Assembly (NCBI GenBank): GCA_002690915.1
Contig: NZGF01000080.1
Span: forward strand, 1-51,556
Origin: Crocinitomicaceae bacterium
Lineage (GTDB): Bacteria > Bacteroidota > Bacteroidia > Flavobacteriales_D > Sanyastnellaceae
Length of the DNA stretch: 51,556 nt
Direction: 5' to 3'
Of this stretch, positions 45,724 to 51,438 are shown piece after piece; position 1 is the first letter of the stretch; every line of letters begins with the position of its first letter. The notes below the pieces were generated by a model. The model ran no database searches and was not told the origin of the DNA. It saw only the letters and a program-made list of their open reading frames with translations. A program made the translations under genes and the position numbers.

Positions 45724-45901
45724 TAGCTGAAGCCGCCTTTTTTCAAGCATTTCCCGCATTCCCAACCGCTCTTGCGAAAACACCATTGAATTCAGGGCTT
45801 TTCTTCATTCCAAACAGCCAGTTCATCCCCCCGAAAAAGACGACTTTTAAACAAGTTGGCGAAGAGGTCGGTTGAATCTTCTCTTTCTATACCCCCCTTA
45901 T

Positions 45902-45909
45902 TACCTTCG
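45902..45909 (+). promoter_or_regulatory. Weak candidate -7 box of uvrD
   Basis: TACCTTCG, one base off TAnnTTTG, followed by AGGT and the GTG at 45914. The 4-nt spacing repeats that seen at other genes here, but no -33 element is visible. Confidence 0.25.
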
Positions 45910-45913
45910 AGGT

Positions 45914-48295
45914 GTGGATTTTCTGAACGAATTAAACGAGGCACAACAAGCAGCCGCCCGGCATCAAGAAGGGCCCATGATGGTCATTGCTGGAGCAGGT
46001 TCGGGAAAGACTCGGGTGCTGACCTACCGCATAGCAAACCTCATTCATAACGGTGTTGACCCGTTTTCAATACTCTCACTGACCTTCACTAACAAGGCGG
46101 CGCGCGAGATGAAAGAACGCATCGGCACGGTCATTGGGGAAGGTGAAGCACGTAATATTTGGATGGGAACATTCCACAGCGTTTTTGCACGGATTCTGCG
46201 CACGGAGTGCGAGCGCATCAACTACCCCCGCCATTTCACCATTTACGACACCCAGGACAGTAGGGCGCTCATCAAGGACATCATCAAAGGACTGGGCATG
46301 GATGACAAGGTTTACAAGACCGCAAGTGTGCAAGCCCGGATTAGCAACGCTAAAAACAACCTCATCGACGCCCATGGATACGCCGACCATGCGGAAATAA
46401 TGTCCGAAGACCACCAAGCAGGTCGACCACGCATCGCAGAAATTTACCGAGCATACGAGAACCGCTGCTTCCGAGCACAAGCTATGGACTTTGACGACCT
46501 GCTGTTCAAGATGAACGTCCTGCTCAGGGATTTCCCAGATTTGCTACTAAAGTACCAGCATAAATTTTCGTACATCTTGGTGGATGAGTACCAAGACACC
46601 AACTTTGCCCAATACCTCATTATAAAGCAGCTCGCAGCCTTGCGTGAAAACCTTTGTGTGGTCGGAGATGACGCCCAATCGATTTACGGTTTCCGCGGCG
46701 CCAACATCCAGAACATCCTTAATTTCAAGCAGGACTACCCGGATTTTGTCTTGTACAAACTTGAACAAAACTACCGATCTACAAAACGGATCGTCGATGC
46801 GGCCAACAGCGTAATCGCCAACAACAAGGACCAGATTGAAAAGATCGTGTGGACTGCCAACGGCGAAGGCGAGCGCATTGCCGTGCACCGCTGCTACAGC
46901 GACAATGAGGAAGGCCGTTGGGCGGCCACGCAAATCTTCGATCTGCACAACCAATACCAACAACATTGGAAGGACATCGCTATTCTCTACCGGACAAATG
47001 CCCAGTCGCGTTCGTTTGAGGAGAGCCTGCGCAAACTAAATGTACCATACCGCATTTACGGAGGCTTGTCGTTTTACCAGCGCAAAGAGATCAAGGACTT
47101 GATCGCCTACTTCCGGCTCACCGCCAACCCCCGAGACGATGAAGCACTCAAGCGTATCATCAACTACCCAACTCGAGGCATTGGGAAGACCACCATGGAT
47201 AGGCTGCTCGTGGAATCAACCGAACGCGACGTCAGCATTTGGGACCTCGTGACAGACGACATGGCGCCGCCCACGAGCGTGAAGGGGGCGAGCCTACGCA
47301 AAGTGCAGGACTTCATACAAATGATTCGCGGGTTTGCCGCAGAGGTGGACACCAAAGACGCCCATGACCTCGGCATGCACATCGCCAAGCACACGGGGCT
47401 GGTGCACTCCTTGTACCAAGACAAAACTCCGGAAGGCGTCGCCCGCTACGACAATGTTCAAGAATTGCTGAACGGGATGAAGTCCTTCGTCGAGCAAGCG
47501 AAAGAAACCGAACCAGATGCCTTCGCGTCGTTGGGTGACTTCCTACTGGACGTCGCCCTGCTAACAGATGCCGATCAGGACGATGGCGACGACAACAAAG
47601 TCAGCATGATGACCATCCACGCCGCCAAGGGTCTGGAGTTCGAGAACGTCTTCATCGTGGGCTTGGAGGAGGAGCTCTTTCCGTCGTCTATGGCAATGCA
47701 GTCCCGGTCCGATCTTGAAGAAGAACGCCGCTTGTTTTACGTGGCCCTGACGCGTGCAAAGCGAACCTGCGCCCTCAGCTATGCACTCACTCGTTATAAA
47801 TGGGGTCAGCTGATTCAAGCGGAGCCAAGTAGATTCATCGAAGAAATAGACAGCGACTGCCTAGTTATGCCCTCAGCCCAACAAGCGAAGCCCACACCGT
47901 TTACCGGCGGGACCAACTTCGAGGCTCAGCGCAAGAACTGGCAAGCCATGGGCAGCGGCAGCCCAGGCGCTGCGTTCGACCGGATGGCCGCGAAAAAAAA
48001 AGCCACCGGTACCTCGCCCGCACATCCCTTCAAAAAGAAACCGCCCCAACCGCCCGTGTCGCCCTCCGGCAAGACCATGGCACGCGTTAAGCCTACTGCT
48101 AACGTAACACCCAATTCAGCACCTGTCGACGGCATCGCCGAAGGCACCAACGTCTGGCACGAAAAATTTGGGAAGGGCAAAGTGCTACGCTTAGAAGGAG
48201 CCAGCCCCAACGAGAAAGCCACGGTGTTTTTCCCAAAAGCGGGACAAAAGCAACTGCTTTTGAAATTCGCTAAACTTGAAATCATCGACCCGTGA
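45914..48295 (+). CDS. uvrD: UvrD/PcrA-type ATP-dependent DNA helicase
   Basis: A superfamily 1A 3'-5' helicase for repair and for removing RecA or stalled complexes. The start is taken as GTG 45914, giving MDFLNELNEAQQAAA as in relatives (793 residues); a TTG at 45872 would add 14 residues. Motifs in order: IAGAGSGKTRVL (I), FTNKAAREM (Ia), VDEYQDTN (II), GDDAQSIYGFRGA (III), LEQNYRST (IV), MTIHAAKGLEFENVF (V) and RRLFYVALTRAK (VI). The C-terminal part has a basic linker and a Tudor-like domain (VWHEKFGKGKVLRLEG), as in PcrA, which binds RNA polymerase. Its TGA overlaps the next ATG. Confidence 0.95.
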   Translation: MDFLNELNEAQQAAARHQEGPMMVIAGAGSGKTRVLTYRIANLIHNGVDPFSILSLTFTNKAAREMKERIGTVIGEGEARNIWMGTFHSVFARILRTECERINYPRHFTIYDTQDSRALIKDIIKGLGMDDKVYKTASVQARISNAKNNLIDAHGYADHAEIMSEDHQAGRPRIAEIYRAYENRCFRAQAMDFDDLLFKMNVLLRDFPDLLLKYQHKFSYILVDEYQDTNFAQYLIIKQLAALRENLCVVGDDAQSIYGFRGANIQNILNFKQDYPDFVLYKLEQNYRSTKRIVDAANSVIANNKDQIEKIVWTANGEGERIAVHRCYSDNEEGRWAATQIFDLHNQYQQHWKDIAILYRTNAQSRSFEESLRKLNVPYRIYGGLSFYQRKEIKDLIAYFRLTANPRDDEALKRIINYPTRGIGKTTMDRLLVESTERDVSIWDLVTDDMAPPTSVKGASLRKVQDFIQMIRGFAAEVDTKDAHDLGMHIAKHTGLVHSLYQDKTPEGVARYDNVQELLNGMKSFVEQAKETEPDAFASLGDFLLDVALLTDADQDDGDDNKVSMMTIHAAKGLEFENVFIVGLEEELFPSSMAMQSRSDLEEERRLFYVALTRAKRTCALSYALTRYKWGQLIQAEPSRFIEEIDSDCLVMPSAQQAKPTPFTGGTNFEAQRKNWQAMGSGSPGAAFDRMAAKKKATGTSPAHPFKKKPPQPPVSPSGKTMARVKPTANVTPNSAPVDGIAEGTNVWHEKFGKGKVLRLEGASPNEKATVFFPKAGQKQLLLKFAKLEIIDP

Positions 48296-48969
48296 TGTGT
48301 TCACTGGCCTCCCATCTTCGACGCTTGGCGATGGCACTGATCATCTTATCCAGCATGGTGGTCAGCGGATGCCGACCCGAGCCGGACAACAACTTGACAC
48401 TTGCCGTGACGGTGCTTCATGTCGACACAAGTGACCCGGTAGCAGATATCGACTTCGAATTGGAACGGCGGGTGCTAGAAAACGGCATACTCAATGGCAA
48501 CTACCAGCCAGTGGGGTCTGCGACCTCCAATGCGGTAGGCTTGGCGAATTTCTATTTCAAAAGGGTCAACGCACTGGATTACCAACTCAACTTGGTTTCG
48601 ACCGATTGGTTCGCCCGTTCGGACTTCATCCAACCAGATTCCTTTCTTGAATCGTCCAAGGTCGACTACACGACAGAAGCAACCCCTAGAGGCACCGTGC
48701 ACATTCGACTCGTCAACACCTACCCGCTCAACGAGGAGGATAAGGTACAGTTCCGCACCCTGAACCCTACAAGTGACTTCCTCACCTGTTCCAATGCGTG
48801 GGAAACCCACTTCGGCACAGAAGTAGATGTAGAGCGCACGTGTGATTTGGAAGCCGATCGGTATCTGTCCTATCGCTACCATGTCACCCGCAATGGAGAA
48901 TTAACCGAAAACCTCGACAGCATCTGGGTGTCCCGGGGAGAACTCACTGAATTGCTCATCGCTTACTGA
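48295..48969 (+). CDS. Lipoprotein of unknown function
   Basis: A 224-residue protein from ATG 48295. The signal MALIILSSMVVSGC gives a lipobox with Cys. The rest is predicted beta-rich and looks like a carboxypeptidase-regulatory-like or transthyretin-like fold (NAVGLANFYFKRVNALDYQL), with two further cysteines in FLTCSNAWE and ERTCDLEAD that may form a disulphide. I do not recognise a named family. TGATG overlaps on both sides couple it to uvrD upstream and the esterase downstream, an unusual company for a periplasmic or outer membrane lipoprotein. Confidence 0.7.
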   Translation: MCSLASHLRRLAMALIILSSMVVSGCRPEPDNNLTLAVTVLHVDTSDPVADIDFELERRVLENGILNGNYQPVGSATSNAVGLANFYFKRVNALDYQLNLVSTDWFARSDFIQPDSFLESSKVDYTTEATPRGTVHIRLVNTYPLNEEDKVQFRTLNPTSDFLTCSNAWETHFGTEVDVERTCDLEADRYLSYRYHVTRNGELTENLDSIWVSRGELTELLIAY

Positions 48970-49601
48970 TGCCGTACCACTCGCTGTCCGTTACCAAGAC
49001 CGCTCGGTACTTCACCTCCGGCCCCGCTATCTCGGAAGCTAAAGGTGTGCTGATCGTCCTGCACGGTTACGGCCAGTTGCCCGAGTTCTTTCTGCGGCGC
49101 CTTCAACCGCTGGCCGACGCCGGATGGGCTATCGTCGCACCAGAGGGGTTGCATCGGTTTTACCTCGAAGGAGCCCACGGGCGTGTGGGAGCCTCGTGGA
49201 TGACAAAAGAAGCACGGGAAGACGACATTGCGGACTACGTGCGGTACCTCGATGCCTTGTCGGTCAAACTTGATTTAACAGAGCGGCGCCTTGTTCTGCT
49301 CGGATTTTCCCAAGGCGTAGCAACTGCATCCCGCTGGGTGGCGATGGGAAACACCGCGTTCAGCCGGTTGATTTTGTGGTCTGGGGTATTCCCACCGGAT
49401 TATCCATGGGAATCGGGCACCGAACAAATGAAATCGATGCGCATTGATGTGGCGCTGGGCACCGAAGACGACTTCTTCGACGATTCTCTGCTGAAGACAA
49501 CGGCTTCAGTTTTGGAAGAGAAGGCTGTATCCTTCACGACCCATTCTTTTCAAGGAGGACACGCCATCGACACGGACTTGTTACAGCGTTTGTTGGACTG
49601 A
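48969..49601 (+). CDS. Alpha/beta hydrolase, phospholipase/carboxylesterase-like
   Basis: A 210-residue alpha/beta hydrolase of the phospholipase/carboxylesterase type. The nucleophile is Ser114 in LGFSQGVATA, with the probable acid Asp167 or Asp168 (LGTEDDFF) and His198 in FQGGHAID; the oxyanion segment is VLHGYGQ near residue 32. No signal peptide, so it should be cytoplasmic. Natural substrate unknown; small esters, acyl thioesters or lysophospholipids are possible. Its ATG overlaps the stop of the lipoprotein gene. A promoter for the next gene overlaps its last codons. Confidence 0.85.
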   Translation: MPYHSLSVTKTARYFTSGPAISEAKGVLIVLHGYGQLPEFFLRRLQPLADAGWAIVAPEGLHRFYLEGAHGRVGASWMTKEAREDDIADYVRYLDALSVKLDLTERRLVLLGFSQGVATASRWVAMGNTAFSRLILWSGVFPPDYPWESGTEQMKSMRIDVALGTEDDFFDDSLLKTTASVLEEKAVSFTTHSFQGGHAIDTDLLQRLLD

Positions 49602-49635: not shown

Positions 49636-51438
49636 ATGAACCTCTCATTGAACCTCAACAGGGGTTTGACCGCGGTCTTCCTGACCGCGTGCACCGCCCT
49701 CCATGCTCAACACGTCACCTGGCCTCAAGCCATCACCAAGGCCGAACGTAACCACGTCGAACGCATCGGCTTTGAACCCGTCGCATCGCGCGGCATCGAG
49801 ACCCCGCCCCCATTTGATTCGCTGCGCACCGCTGCAGAATGGGAAGAAGTGGAAGCGTTGACCATCTCGTGGACTTCGTTTCCTTGCATTCAAAAGCAGA
49901 TTGTTGCCGCTTCGAAACAAGAATGCACCGTAATCATCTTCGCCGACGATGTCGGTGAAGTCGAAAATTACCTAACCAGTTCCACCTGCGGCGGTGTGAT
50001 GGACTTGGAAAATGTGGAAATCGTTTCCGCAGAGTACAATTCCATTTGGATCCGCGATTACGGGGCCAACACCGTCTATGGAAGCTGGAACGATGACCGA
50101 GTTTTGGTGGATTGGATGTACAATCGGCCACGCCCAGACGATGACGCCATTCCCGATGTGCTCGGGGACCACATGGGGCTGGACGTGTACACCACCACAG
50201 CCGAACCCAACGACTTGATGAACACAGGTGGAAATTGGATGTCTGATGGATTCGGAACTGCTTTTGCGTCTGAGCTTATTCTTGAAGAAAACGACGGAGG
50301 CAGTTCGTGGTGGACAGATTTTCCGGACCACAGCGAGACCGAAATCGACCAAATCATCGAGGACTTCCACGGCATAGACACCTACATCAAAATGCCAGTC
50401 TTACCCTACGACGGCATTCACCACATTGACATGCACATGAAATTGCTCGACGAGAGCACCCTCCTCGTTGCCGAATATCCAATGGGGATTGCAGATGGAC
50501 CTCAAATCAATGCGAACATGGATTATGTGTTGGCAAATTACACGACGAAGTGGGGCACACCGTTCGACATCATTCGCATCCCAAGTCCGCCCGAGCAAGG
50601 CGGAGGCTACCCGAACCAAAACGGCTGGTACTTGACGTATACAAATTCCGTCTTCGTCAACAACACCATTCTTCTGCCCACCTACTACACCGCGTACGAC
50701 ACCACCGCCATCCGCATCTACGAGGAGGCCTTACCAGGGTACGAAGTGGTCGGCATCGATTGCGACAACAACGGCTCAGCCATCATTTCTCTAAGTGGCG
50801 CCATCCATTGCATTACCCATACCGTAGGCGTTGACGACCCGCTCATGATCAGTCACTTGGCGCTGCCAGACACGGAAGACGACCAAAACGACTACGACGT
50901 GGAGGCGTACTTGAGCCACCGCAGCGGCATCCAGACTGCTACCCTGCATTGGGCGACCGATCCGACTGGGGAATGGACTTCCGTGAGCATGATAAATGCA
51001 GATTATCTGGGCAACTGGATTGCCAGCATTCCAGCCCACCCTCCCGGCACAACGCTGCACTATTACATAGAAGGACAGGCAAACTCAGGAAAAGTAGGTA
51101 ATCGTCCCATGCCCGCTCCAGACGGTTGGTGGAGTTTTGAGGTCATCGACCCAACGGTGGGCATCGGTGAGTTTGACGCGTCGCCGATGGCAGCGGCCTA
51201 TCCCAACCCCGCCTCAGCCATCACCAGCATCCCCATGGAATTGCGCAGCGGCACTTCGGGCAGTTTGGTGGTTTACAATGCGCTTGGCGCACAGGTCGAC
51301 TTGCTCCATCAAGGCTACTTCCCCGCTGGGAGCTCGCACTACTTCCTGCACGCGAATCAAATGGCGTCCGGACCTTACCTCATTGTCTTTCAAACCGACG
51401 AGGGACAGCAATGGAGCCAGCACCTGATGGTAAAGTGA
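49636..51438 (+). CDS. Secreted peptidylarginine deiminase, PPAD-like, with T9SS sorting domain
   Basis: A 600-residue enzyme of the guanidino-modifying superfamily. It has a signal peptide (cleavage near ALHA, residue 24), a catalytic domain (about 55-405), an Ig-like domain (about 425-500) and a type A T9SS sorting tail (YPNPASAITSIP to the end). Compared, from memory, with the citrullinating enzyme PPAD of Porphyromonas gingivalis, the key residues match: Asp141 (WIRDYG), Arg164 and Arg166 (YNRPRPDDD), His263 and Asp265 (HIDMH), Asn337 (YTNSV) and nucleophile Cys392 (AIHCITH). The two arginines bind the carboxylate in PPAD, so preference for C-terminal arginine is predicted. Agmatine deiminase is the alternative, but it is cytosolic and lacks these arginines and the tail. 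It has its own promoter and terminator. Confidence 0.87.
   Translation: MNLSLNLNRGLTAVFLTACTALHAQHVTWPQAITKAERNHVERIGFEPVASRGIETPPPFDSLRTAAEWEEVEALTISWTSFPCIQKQIVAASKQECTVIIFADDVGEVENYLTSSTCGGVMDLENVEIVSAEYNSIWIRDYGANTVYGSWNDDRVLVDWMYNRPRPDDDAIPDVLGDHMGLDVYTTTAEPNDLMNTGGNWMSDGFGTAFASELILEENDGGSSWWTDFPDHSETEIDQIIEDFHGIDTYIKMPVLPYDGIHHIDMHMKLLDESTLLVAEYPMGIADGPQINANMDYVLANYTTKWGTPFDIIRIPSPPEQGGGYPNQNGWYLTYTNSVFVNNTILLPTYYTAYDTTAIRIYEEALPGYEVVGIDCDNNGSAIISLSGAIHCITHTVGVDDPLMISHLALPDTEDDQNDYDVEAYLSHRSGIQTATLHWATDPTGEWTSVSMINADYLGNWIASIPAHPPGTTLHYYIEGQANSGKVGNRPMPAPDGWWSFEVIDPTVGIGEFDASPMAAAYPNPASAITSIPMELRSGTSGSLVVYNALGAQVDLLHQGYFPAGSSHYFLHANQMASGPYLIVFQTDEGQQWSQHLMVK

Follow-up and report, generated by a model that had tools for sequence, protein, structure and literature searches.

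A predicted surface peptidylarginine deiminase in an environmental Bacteroidota genome belongs to a branch beside PPAD without the tyrosine gate

We analyzed a 51,556-nucleotide stretch of DNA from a Crocinitomicaceae bacterium (contig NZGF01000080.1 of assembly GCA_002690915.1; hereafter, the window), which carries near its end a gene related to the peptidylarginine deiminase PPAD of Porphyromonas gingivalis. Judged from its sequence, the gene product is probably a surface-exposed peptidylarginine deiminase. The chemistry and the architecture of such enzymes are already known; what is new is a distinct branch of the family, here called group I, that lacks the tyrosine gate of PPAD in every member surveyed, together with a candidate partner gene for a small lipoprotein. 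The group I survey comprised 129 rows, 120 of them distinct after removal of identical or contained catalytic regions (L001 and L032, both duplicates of L002, and L033, a duplicate of L031, were dropped before counting); one of the 151 aligned rows was too short for the catalytic set. Labels beginning with L and G denote the loci and the genomes of the survey, respectively. The features of the window gene are as follows.

49636..51438, forward strand: predicted secreted peptidylarginine deiminase of the PPAD clade; open reading frame of 600 amino acids (aa), PF04371 (PAD_porph), best PDB match PPAD (4yt9)
49636..49710, forward strand: probable Sec signal peptide, residues about 1-25, read by eye; helix 7-21 in the structural model
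49807..50865, forward strand: catalytic guanidino-modifying (pentein) domain, residues about 58-410, from Pfam, model and superposition
50056..50058, forward strand: Asp141, by equivalence to PPAD D130 a guanidinium-binding residue; 120 of 120 distinct members
50125..50133, forward strand: Arg164-Pro-Arg166, by alignment with PPAD R152/R154 the carboxylate- or backbone-binding pair; 120 of 120 distinct members
50407..50442, forward strand: loop and catalytic histidine, Y258-D-G260-I-H-H263-I-D265-M-H-M-K, with Gly260 at the place of PPAD Tyr233
50644..50646, forward strand: Asn337, equivalent of PPAD N297 of the catalytic triad; 119 of 120 distinct members, one gap
50809..50811, forward strand: Cys392, equivalent of the PPAD nucleophile C351; 118 of 120 distinct members, two gaps
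50878..51144, forward strand: immunoglobulin (Ig)-like domain, residues about 415-503, from the model; aligns with the second domain of PPAD
51193..51435, forward strand: type IX secretion system (T9SS) type A C-terminal sorting domain, residues about 520-600 (TIGR04183)

The PAD_porph match covers residues 65-396 (Pfam, E 7.3e-35), and the relatives have leaders comparable to that of the window protein, ending in AQ or SQ. At the other end, the NCBIfam model TIGR04183 matches residues 522-599 with 24.4 bits against a cut-off of 23, the Pfam model of the T9SS tail falls just below its own cut-off (24.2 vs 27), and a TIGR04183 tail was found in 53 of the 61 aligned family members. Profiles, model and superposition agree with the PPAD-like order of signal peptide, catalytic domain, Ig-like domain and T9SS tail that an earlier sequence-only reading of the window had proposed. 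Two variations on this architecture were observed among group I proteins. Pattern matches to dockerin-like calcium-loop repeats occur at the C-termini of L029, L116, L118 and L128, and five genomes (G022, G026, G032, G036 and G037) contain at least two group I matches each, at least one per genome lying in an open frame of 824-1024 aa.

The closest solved relative of the window protein is PPAD, both by sequence (4yt9, E 4.7e-37, with the next family member at 4e-17) and by superposition of the whole-chain fold. The identity to PPAD, counted as one sequence in all comparisons (4yt9, 4ytb, 4ytg, 5ak7, 5ak8 and 6i0x), is 26-28%. Two trees of catalytic domains were built, with support given as ultrafast bootstrap / Shimodaira-Hasegawa-like approximate likelihood ratio test; the first contained 60 proteins, among them 38 hand-picked from the 129 group I rows, and the second left out the long-branch AgD_L155 and added L163. 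In the first tree, group I, PPAD and group II (proteins of other Bacteroidota: L053-L056 and, in the second tree, L163) fell on one side of a branch at 99/96, and all 12 agmatine-deiminase-type rows stood apart at 100/100; in the second, the clade with the arginine pair, including the window protein and PPAD, received 98/94. PPAD and group II were joined at 100/100 in both trees, and the monophyly of group I received weak support (81/58 and 82/44). The NCBIfam agmatine deiminase models match all 61 aligned members weakly, reaching 38.6 vs 381.8 bits (TIGR03380) and 43.6 vs 483 bits (NF010070) on the window protein; the score is a weak test, however, as the agmatine-deiminase-type matches in 60 genomes stay under the cut-off too. 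Neither arginine of the pair is present in any of the 12 agmatine-deiminase-type proteins, and the solved agmatine deiminases (AguA; 2jer, 3h7k, 6nib and 6b10) have no Ig-like domain. On the low scores, the tree position and the arginine pair we rejected an agmatine deiminase identity, and the earlier placement nearer to PPAD stands, since neither clustering with agmatine deiminases nor loss of the arginines in a proper alignment was observed.

Group II resembles the window protein in keeping the arginine pair (5 of 5) and in T9SS-tail-like ends, read by eye on L053, L055, L056 and L163 (L054 ends early), but differs from it in a higher identity to PPAD (36-43%), in its place on the PPAD branch and in the gate residue. 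Group III (L057-L061) consists of PAD_porph proteins of about 670-725 aa that have the second arginine only and carry the motif GGTGH[IL]D. In 14 near genomes (e.g., G011:C46, G005:C65 and G034:C7), mostly of the genus of the window, we noticed an additional deiminase-like protein of greater distance (23-28% identity, E 3.9e-19 to 8.4e-9), whose open frames measure 413-460 aa; none was seen in the window's own assembly, where no PF04371 match other than the window protein was found.

All eight residues numbered in the sequence-only reading (Cys392, His263, Asp265, Asn337, Asp141, Arg164, Arg166 and Gly260) are present in the alignment, and their numbering is right. Throughout the distinct group I members W138, D141, R164, R166, D259, H263, D265 and M266 are invariant, the gaps at N337 and C392 stem from cut or broken genes, and position 258 holds an aromatic residue throughout (Y 95, F 25). 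The group is marked by a new signature, [YF]D-x-I-x-HIDMHMK. Its variable position 260, which corresponds to the gate, is occupied by G in 83 members, D in 12, V in 5, E in 5, I in 4, Q in 3, N in 2, L in 2, A in 2, H in 1 and P in 1, and in none of the 120 by Tyr. The glycine had been singled out as a striking departure from PPAD; it is indeed there, but it is ordinary for this branch rather than an oddity of one protein. Further departures of the window protein from PPAD are Met for Cys239, His for Trp240 and SGAIHCIT for DALHCRT. Because of Gly260 and the absence of Tyr from all 120 distinct members of the subfamily, the protein is assigned not to PPAD sensu stricto but to a sister subfamily, on a separate branch of the same clade. 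In group II the gate position holds Ala in four proteins of one genus and Tyr in L163. Tyrosine at this position was therefore found in PPAD and one further protein of its branch, and we dropped the idea of Tyr233 as a trait of Porphyromonas only; in this sample the gate tyrosine appears to be a trait of the PPAD branch that was either lost or lately gained within it. L163 is a 579-aa protein with a T9SS-like tail by eye and 37% identity to PPAD, and its host genome belongs to the class of G169, not to that of the window.

Regarding export, the T9SS machinery was checked for SprA and for PorU and its peptidase family, C25. The translocon protein SprA is encoded in the window's own genome. No C25 peptidase was found in this assembly, which has a completeness of 84.91% and in which the control was silent too; C25 was found in 19 of the 20 genomes searched, the own assembly being the one miss. 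In 11 of 12 same-genus relatives the C25 matches fit a single gene (in G003 as two fragments of the same frame); the twelfth, G002, shows partial matches on two contigs, one on each, which cover overlapping parts of the profile and may stem from one gene or two. Since the family is present in same-genus relatives and the one protein checked, from G001, is PorU (1112.9 bits vs 420), a T9SS sortase is expected in the host. The same search, covering the 12 same-genus relatives, showed no gingipain-like arginine protease, although other arginine-specific proteases may exist. With C25 matches that fit one gene in 11 of these 12 genomes and PorU as the one in G001, no candidate is left for a gingipain-type partner protease.

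The favored mechanism follows PPAD chemistry. The deiminase would cross the inner membrane via Sec and the outer membrane via the type IX system, after which the tail would be cleaved and the enzyme anchored or released, as the tail, SprA and the PorU of the genus suggest. Cys392 would then attack the guanidinium of an arginine gripped by Asp141 and Asp265, with His263 as the base and Asn337 completing the triad, to yield peptidyl-citrulline and ammonia. In PPAD, R152 and R154 bind the C-terminal carboxylate of the substrate, Y233 binds it when the Michaelis loop closes, and endo-action is said to be blocked by a clash with Y233 and R152 (PMC4487231); Y233 is not among the mutants listed there. 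The R152A mutant of PPAD had lower activity on an arginine ester, on which R154A made no difference, and on peptide substrates the wild type was reported above the mutants (PMC4893104). The conserved pair may accordingly be read as favoring a peptide over agmatine as the substrate, leaving either a C-terminal or an internal arginine as its target. The pair alone is no proof of C-terminal specificity, since human PAD4, which like the other human PADs (PAD1-4) shares the pentein fold, has R372/R374 in place of R152/R154 and S468 in place of Y233, as given in a figure legend (PMC4487231). With the gate missing, as in all 120 distinct members, the mouth of the pocket may tolerate arginines that are not strictly C-terminal. 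C-terminal arginine has about an even chance of being the main substrate; an arginine in an internal position or a flexible tail would be the next candidate, with clearly lower odds.

The strongest competing view of the enzyme is that it acts broadly or as an endo-deiminase, also citrullinating internal arginines in the manner of human PAD4, and that its arginine pair holds backbone carbonyls instead of a C-terminal carboxylate. The PAD4 equivalences just given are in line with it, and so is the absence of Tyr from all 120 distinct members, as loss of the gate would open the possibility of endo-action. In addition, no second C25 protease that could expose C-terminal arginines was seen in 11 of the 12 same-genus relatives. 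We regard this view as possible but doubtful. Quite unlikely is a secreted agmatine or free-arginine deiminase for nitrogen scavenging, its peptide specificity lost or never there: agmatine deiminases share the Pfam family, their NCBIfam models match all aligned members weakly, the own assembly has no other PF04371 protein, and L155 (see below) makes export compatible with that chemistry, but the scores far below the cut-off, the separation of the 12 agmatine-deiminase-type proteins in the tree and the absence of both arginines from them all speak against it. L155 is itself an agmatine-deiminase-type protein of 461 aa with a leader and, by eye, a T9SS-tail-like end. For the peptidylarginine deiminase that we favor, the role in the host might be surface processing of arginine-rich peptides, either to release ammonia or citrulline or to alter the charge of surface proteins.

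Genome counts, host orders and sample titles show that the enzyme is common among environmental Bacteroidota. Among 60 near genomes (the own genome included), 54 match the full-length query, some of them by the tail only since the query included it, and 47, again with the own genome, have the enzyme itself (E < 1e-100). Of 395 genomes sampled across the phylum, 35 gave a match of E <= 1e-20 to the isolated catalytic domain; 21 of them (own included, E < 1e-80) have group I, 4 group II and 10 weaker matches. The GTDB species genomes contain at least 538 stretches that code for a relative (E up to 1e-3), and the best 80 of these are our named loci. By NCBI order they belong to Flavobacteriales (56), Chitinophagales (3), Saprospirales (3) and Bacteroidales (1), with no order given for 17; two are from named strains, Cryomorpha ignava and Brumimicrobium mesophilum, and nearly all the rest from metagenome bins, some of whose titles suggest water samples (pond, groundwater, lake or sea surface). 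The window was thus correctly seen to hold a PPAD-like enzyme outside the best-known host, in a Flavobacteriales-type genome with SprA, but the setting is not exceptional within so large a family.

PPAD is often portrayed as almost the only citrullinating enzyme of bacteria (e.g., PMC4893104), and pPAD-type genes have already been called more widespread than thought in a published analysis (PMC8826395). Among the matches listed in the open-access literature (titles and abstract openings, with most subscription papers outside this scope), no study of a group I protein, its pocket or the linked lipoprotein was found. A large sister branch from environmental hosts, which shares the catalytic residues but differs at the pocket mouth, provides natural comparisons for the role of the Tyr gate, and its hosts offer a place to learn the purpose of secreted citrullination.

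The deiminase gene is the last of a same-strand string that begins with a UvrD-type helicase gene (45872-48295) and continues with two genes.

48292..48969, forward strand: small lipoprotein, 225 aa, lipobox Cys at residue 26 counted from 48295; two beta-sandwich domains in the model
48969..49601, forward strand: esterase-like alpha/beta-hydrolase (PF02230, E 7.7e-10), between the lipoprotein and deiminase genes

Neighbors were counted in 79 usable loci of the 80 named ones, as one gave no core gene. At a distance of four genes or fewer from the deiminase, the lipoprotein family is present in 31 of the 79 and the esterase-like hydrolase in 16. In 11 of the 31 linked loci none of UvrD, esterase and ribosomal protein S12 stands beside the lipoprotein, and on this ground we rejected the esterase and the UvrD helicase as functional partners, although four loci have UvrD or esterase without the lipoprotein. 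A profile search, for which the wrongly predicted open reading frame of L072 was left out of the profile, detected a linked lipoprotein in 34 of the 80 named loci, on the same strand in 33 and on the opposite strand in L124; in 15 of the 34 the two open frames are no more than about 100 bases apart. In the near genomes the lipoprotein occurs in 40 of 60, and in 34 of these 40 a group I deiminase lies no farther than 5 kb away (the exceptions are G021, G030, G038, G041, G046 and G055). The same-strand upstream position is nearly universal, the opposite strand being seen in L124, in G056 (69 bases away) and in G045 (3 kb away).

One explanation of this linkage is that the lipoprotein serves the deiminase specifically, either as an inhibitor shielding the cell's own envelope or as a surface anchor, so that the pair would form a two-gene module rather than a lone enzyme. 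We put this forward tentatively. The proximity in the near genomes, the 11 loci without the other neighbors and the persistence of the linkage with the strand reversed argue for it, and a precedent may be found in the potempins of Tannerella forsythia, small lipoproteins encoded just upstream of secreted KLIKK proteases and said to inhibit them, with the inhibition cited in that paper as data to be published (PMC7296668). The likeness is one of gene order in a T9SS organism and applies to the linked gene only, and the potempin partner is a protease, unlike the deiminase here. Several observations weigh against a dedicated partner. A linked copy is lacking in 13 of the 47 near genomes that carry the enzyme; in 19 distant group I loci (L034-L052) the lipoprotein was not found in the 0.4-1.4 kb of upstream sequence examined; G041 and G030 have a homologue and no detected deiminase; and the linkage is partly due to a gene order that related genomes inherited in common. 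The lipoprotein, of which 28 members were aligned, has a structural model (mean predicted local distance difference test 91.5) with a generic pair of beta-sandwich domains, the first (N-terminal) of which resembles CNA-B, transthyretin and DUF3823 domains, a likeness that names no function, and a fold search gave no convincing whole-chain match.

If the lipoprotein acts on the enzyme, it would provide, to our knowledge, the first clue from genetics to a natural partner of these enzymes. On the broadest and rather improbable reading, free-living Bacteroidota would widely carry a surface citrullination module, in which a T9SS-exported deiminase that lacks the gate and has broad or endo activity is joined by a dedicated lipoprotein that restrains or anchors it, and PPAD would be a specialized Tyr-gated offshoot of this older environmental system. 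On the other side of the deiminase, a twin-arginine, asparaginase-like gene (by eye, in one example) follows at position +1 or +2 in 11 of the 79 usable loci (e.g., L086).
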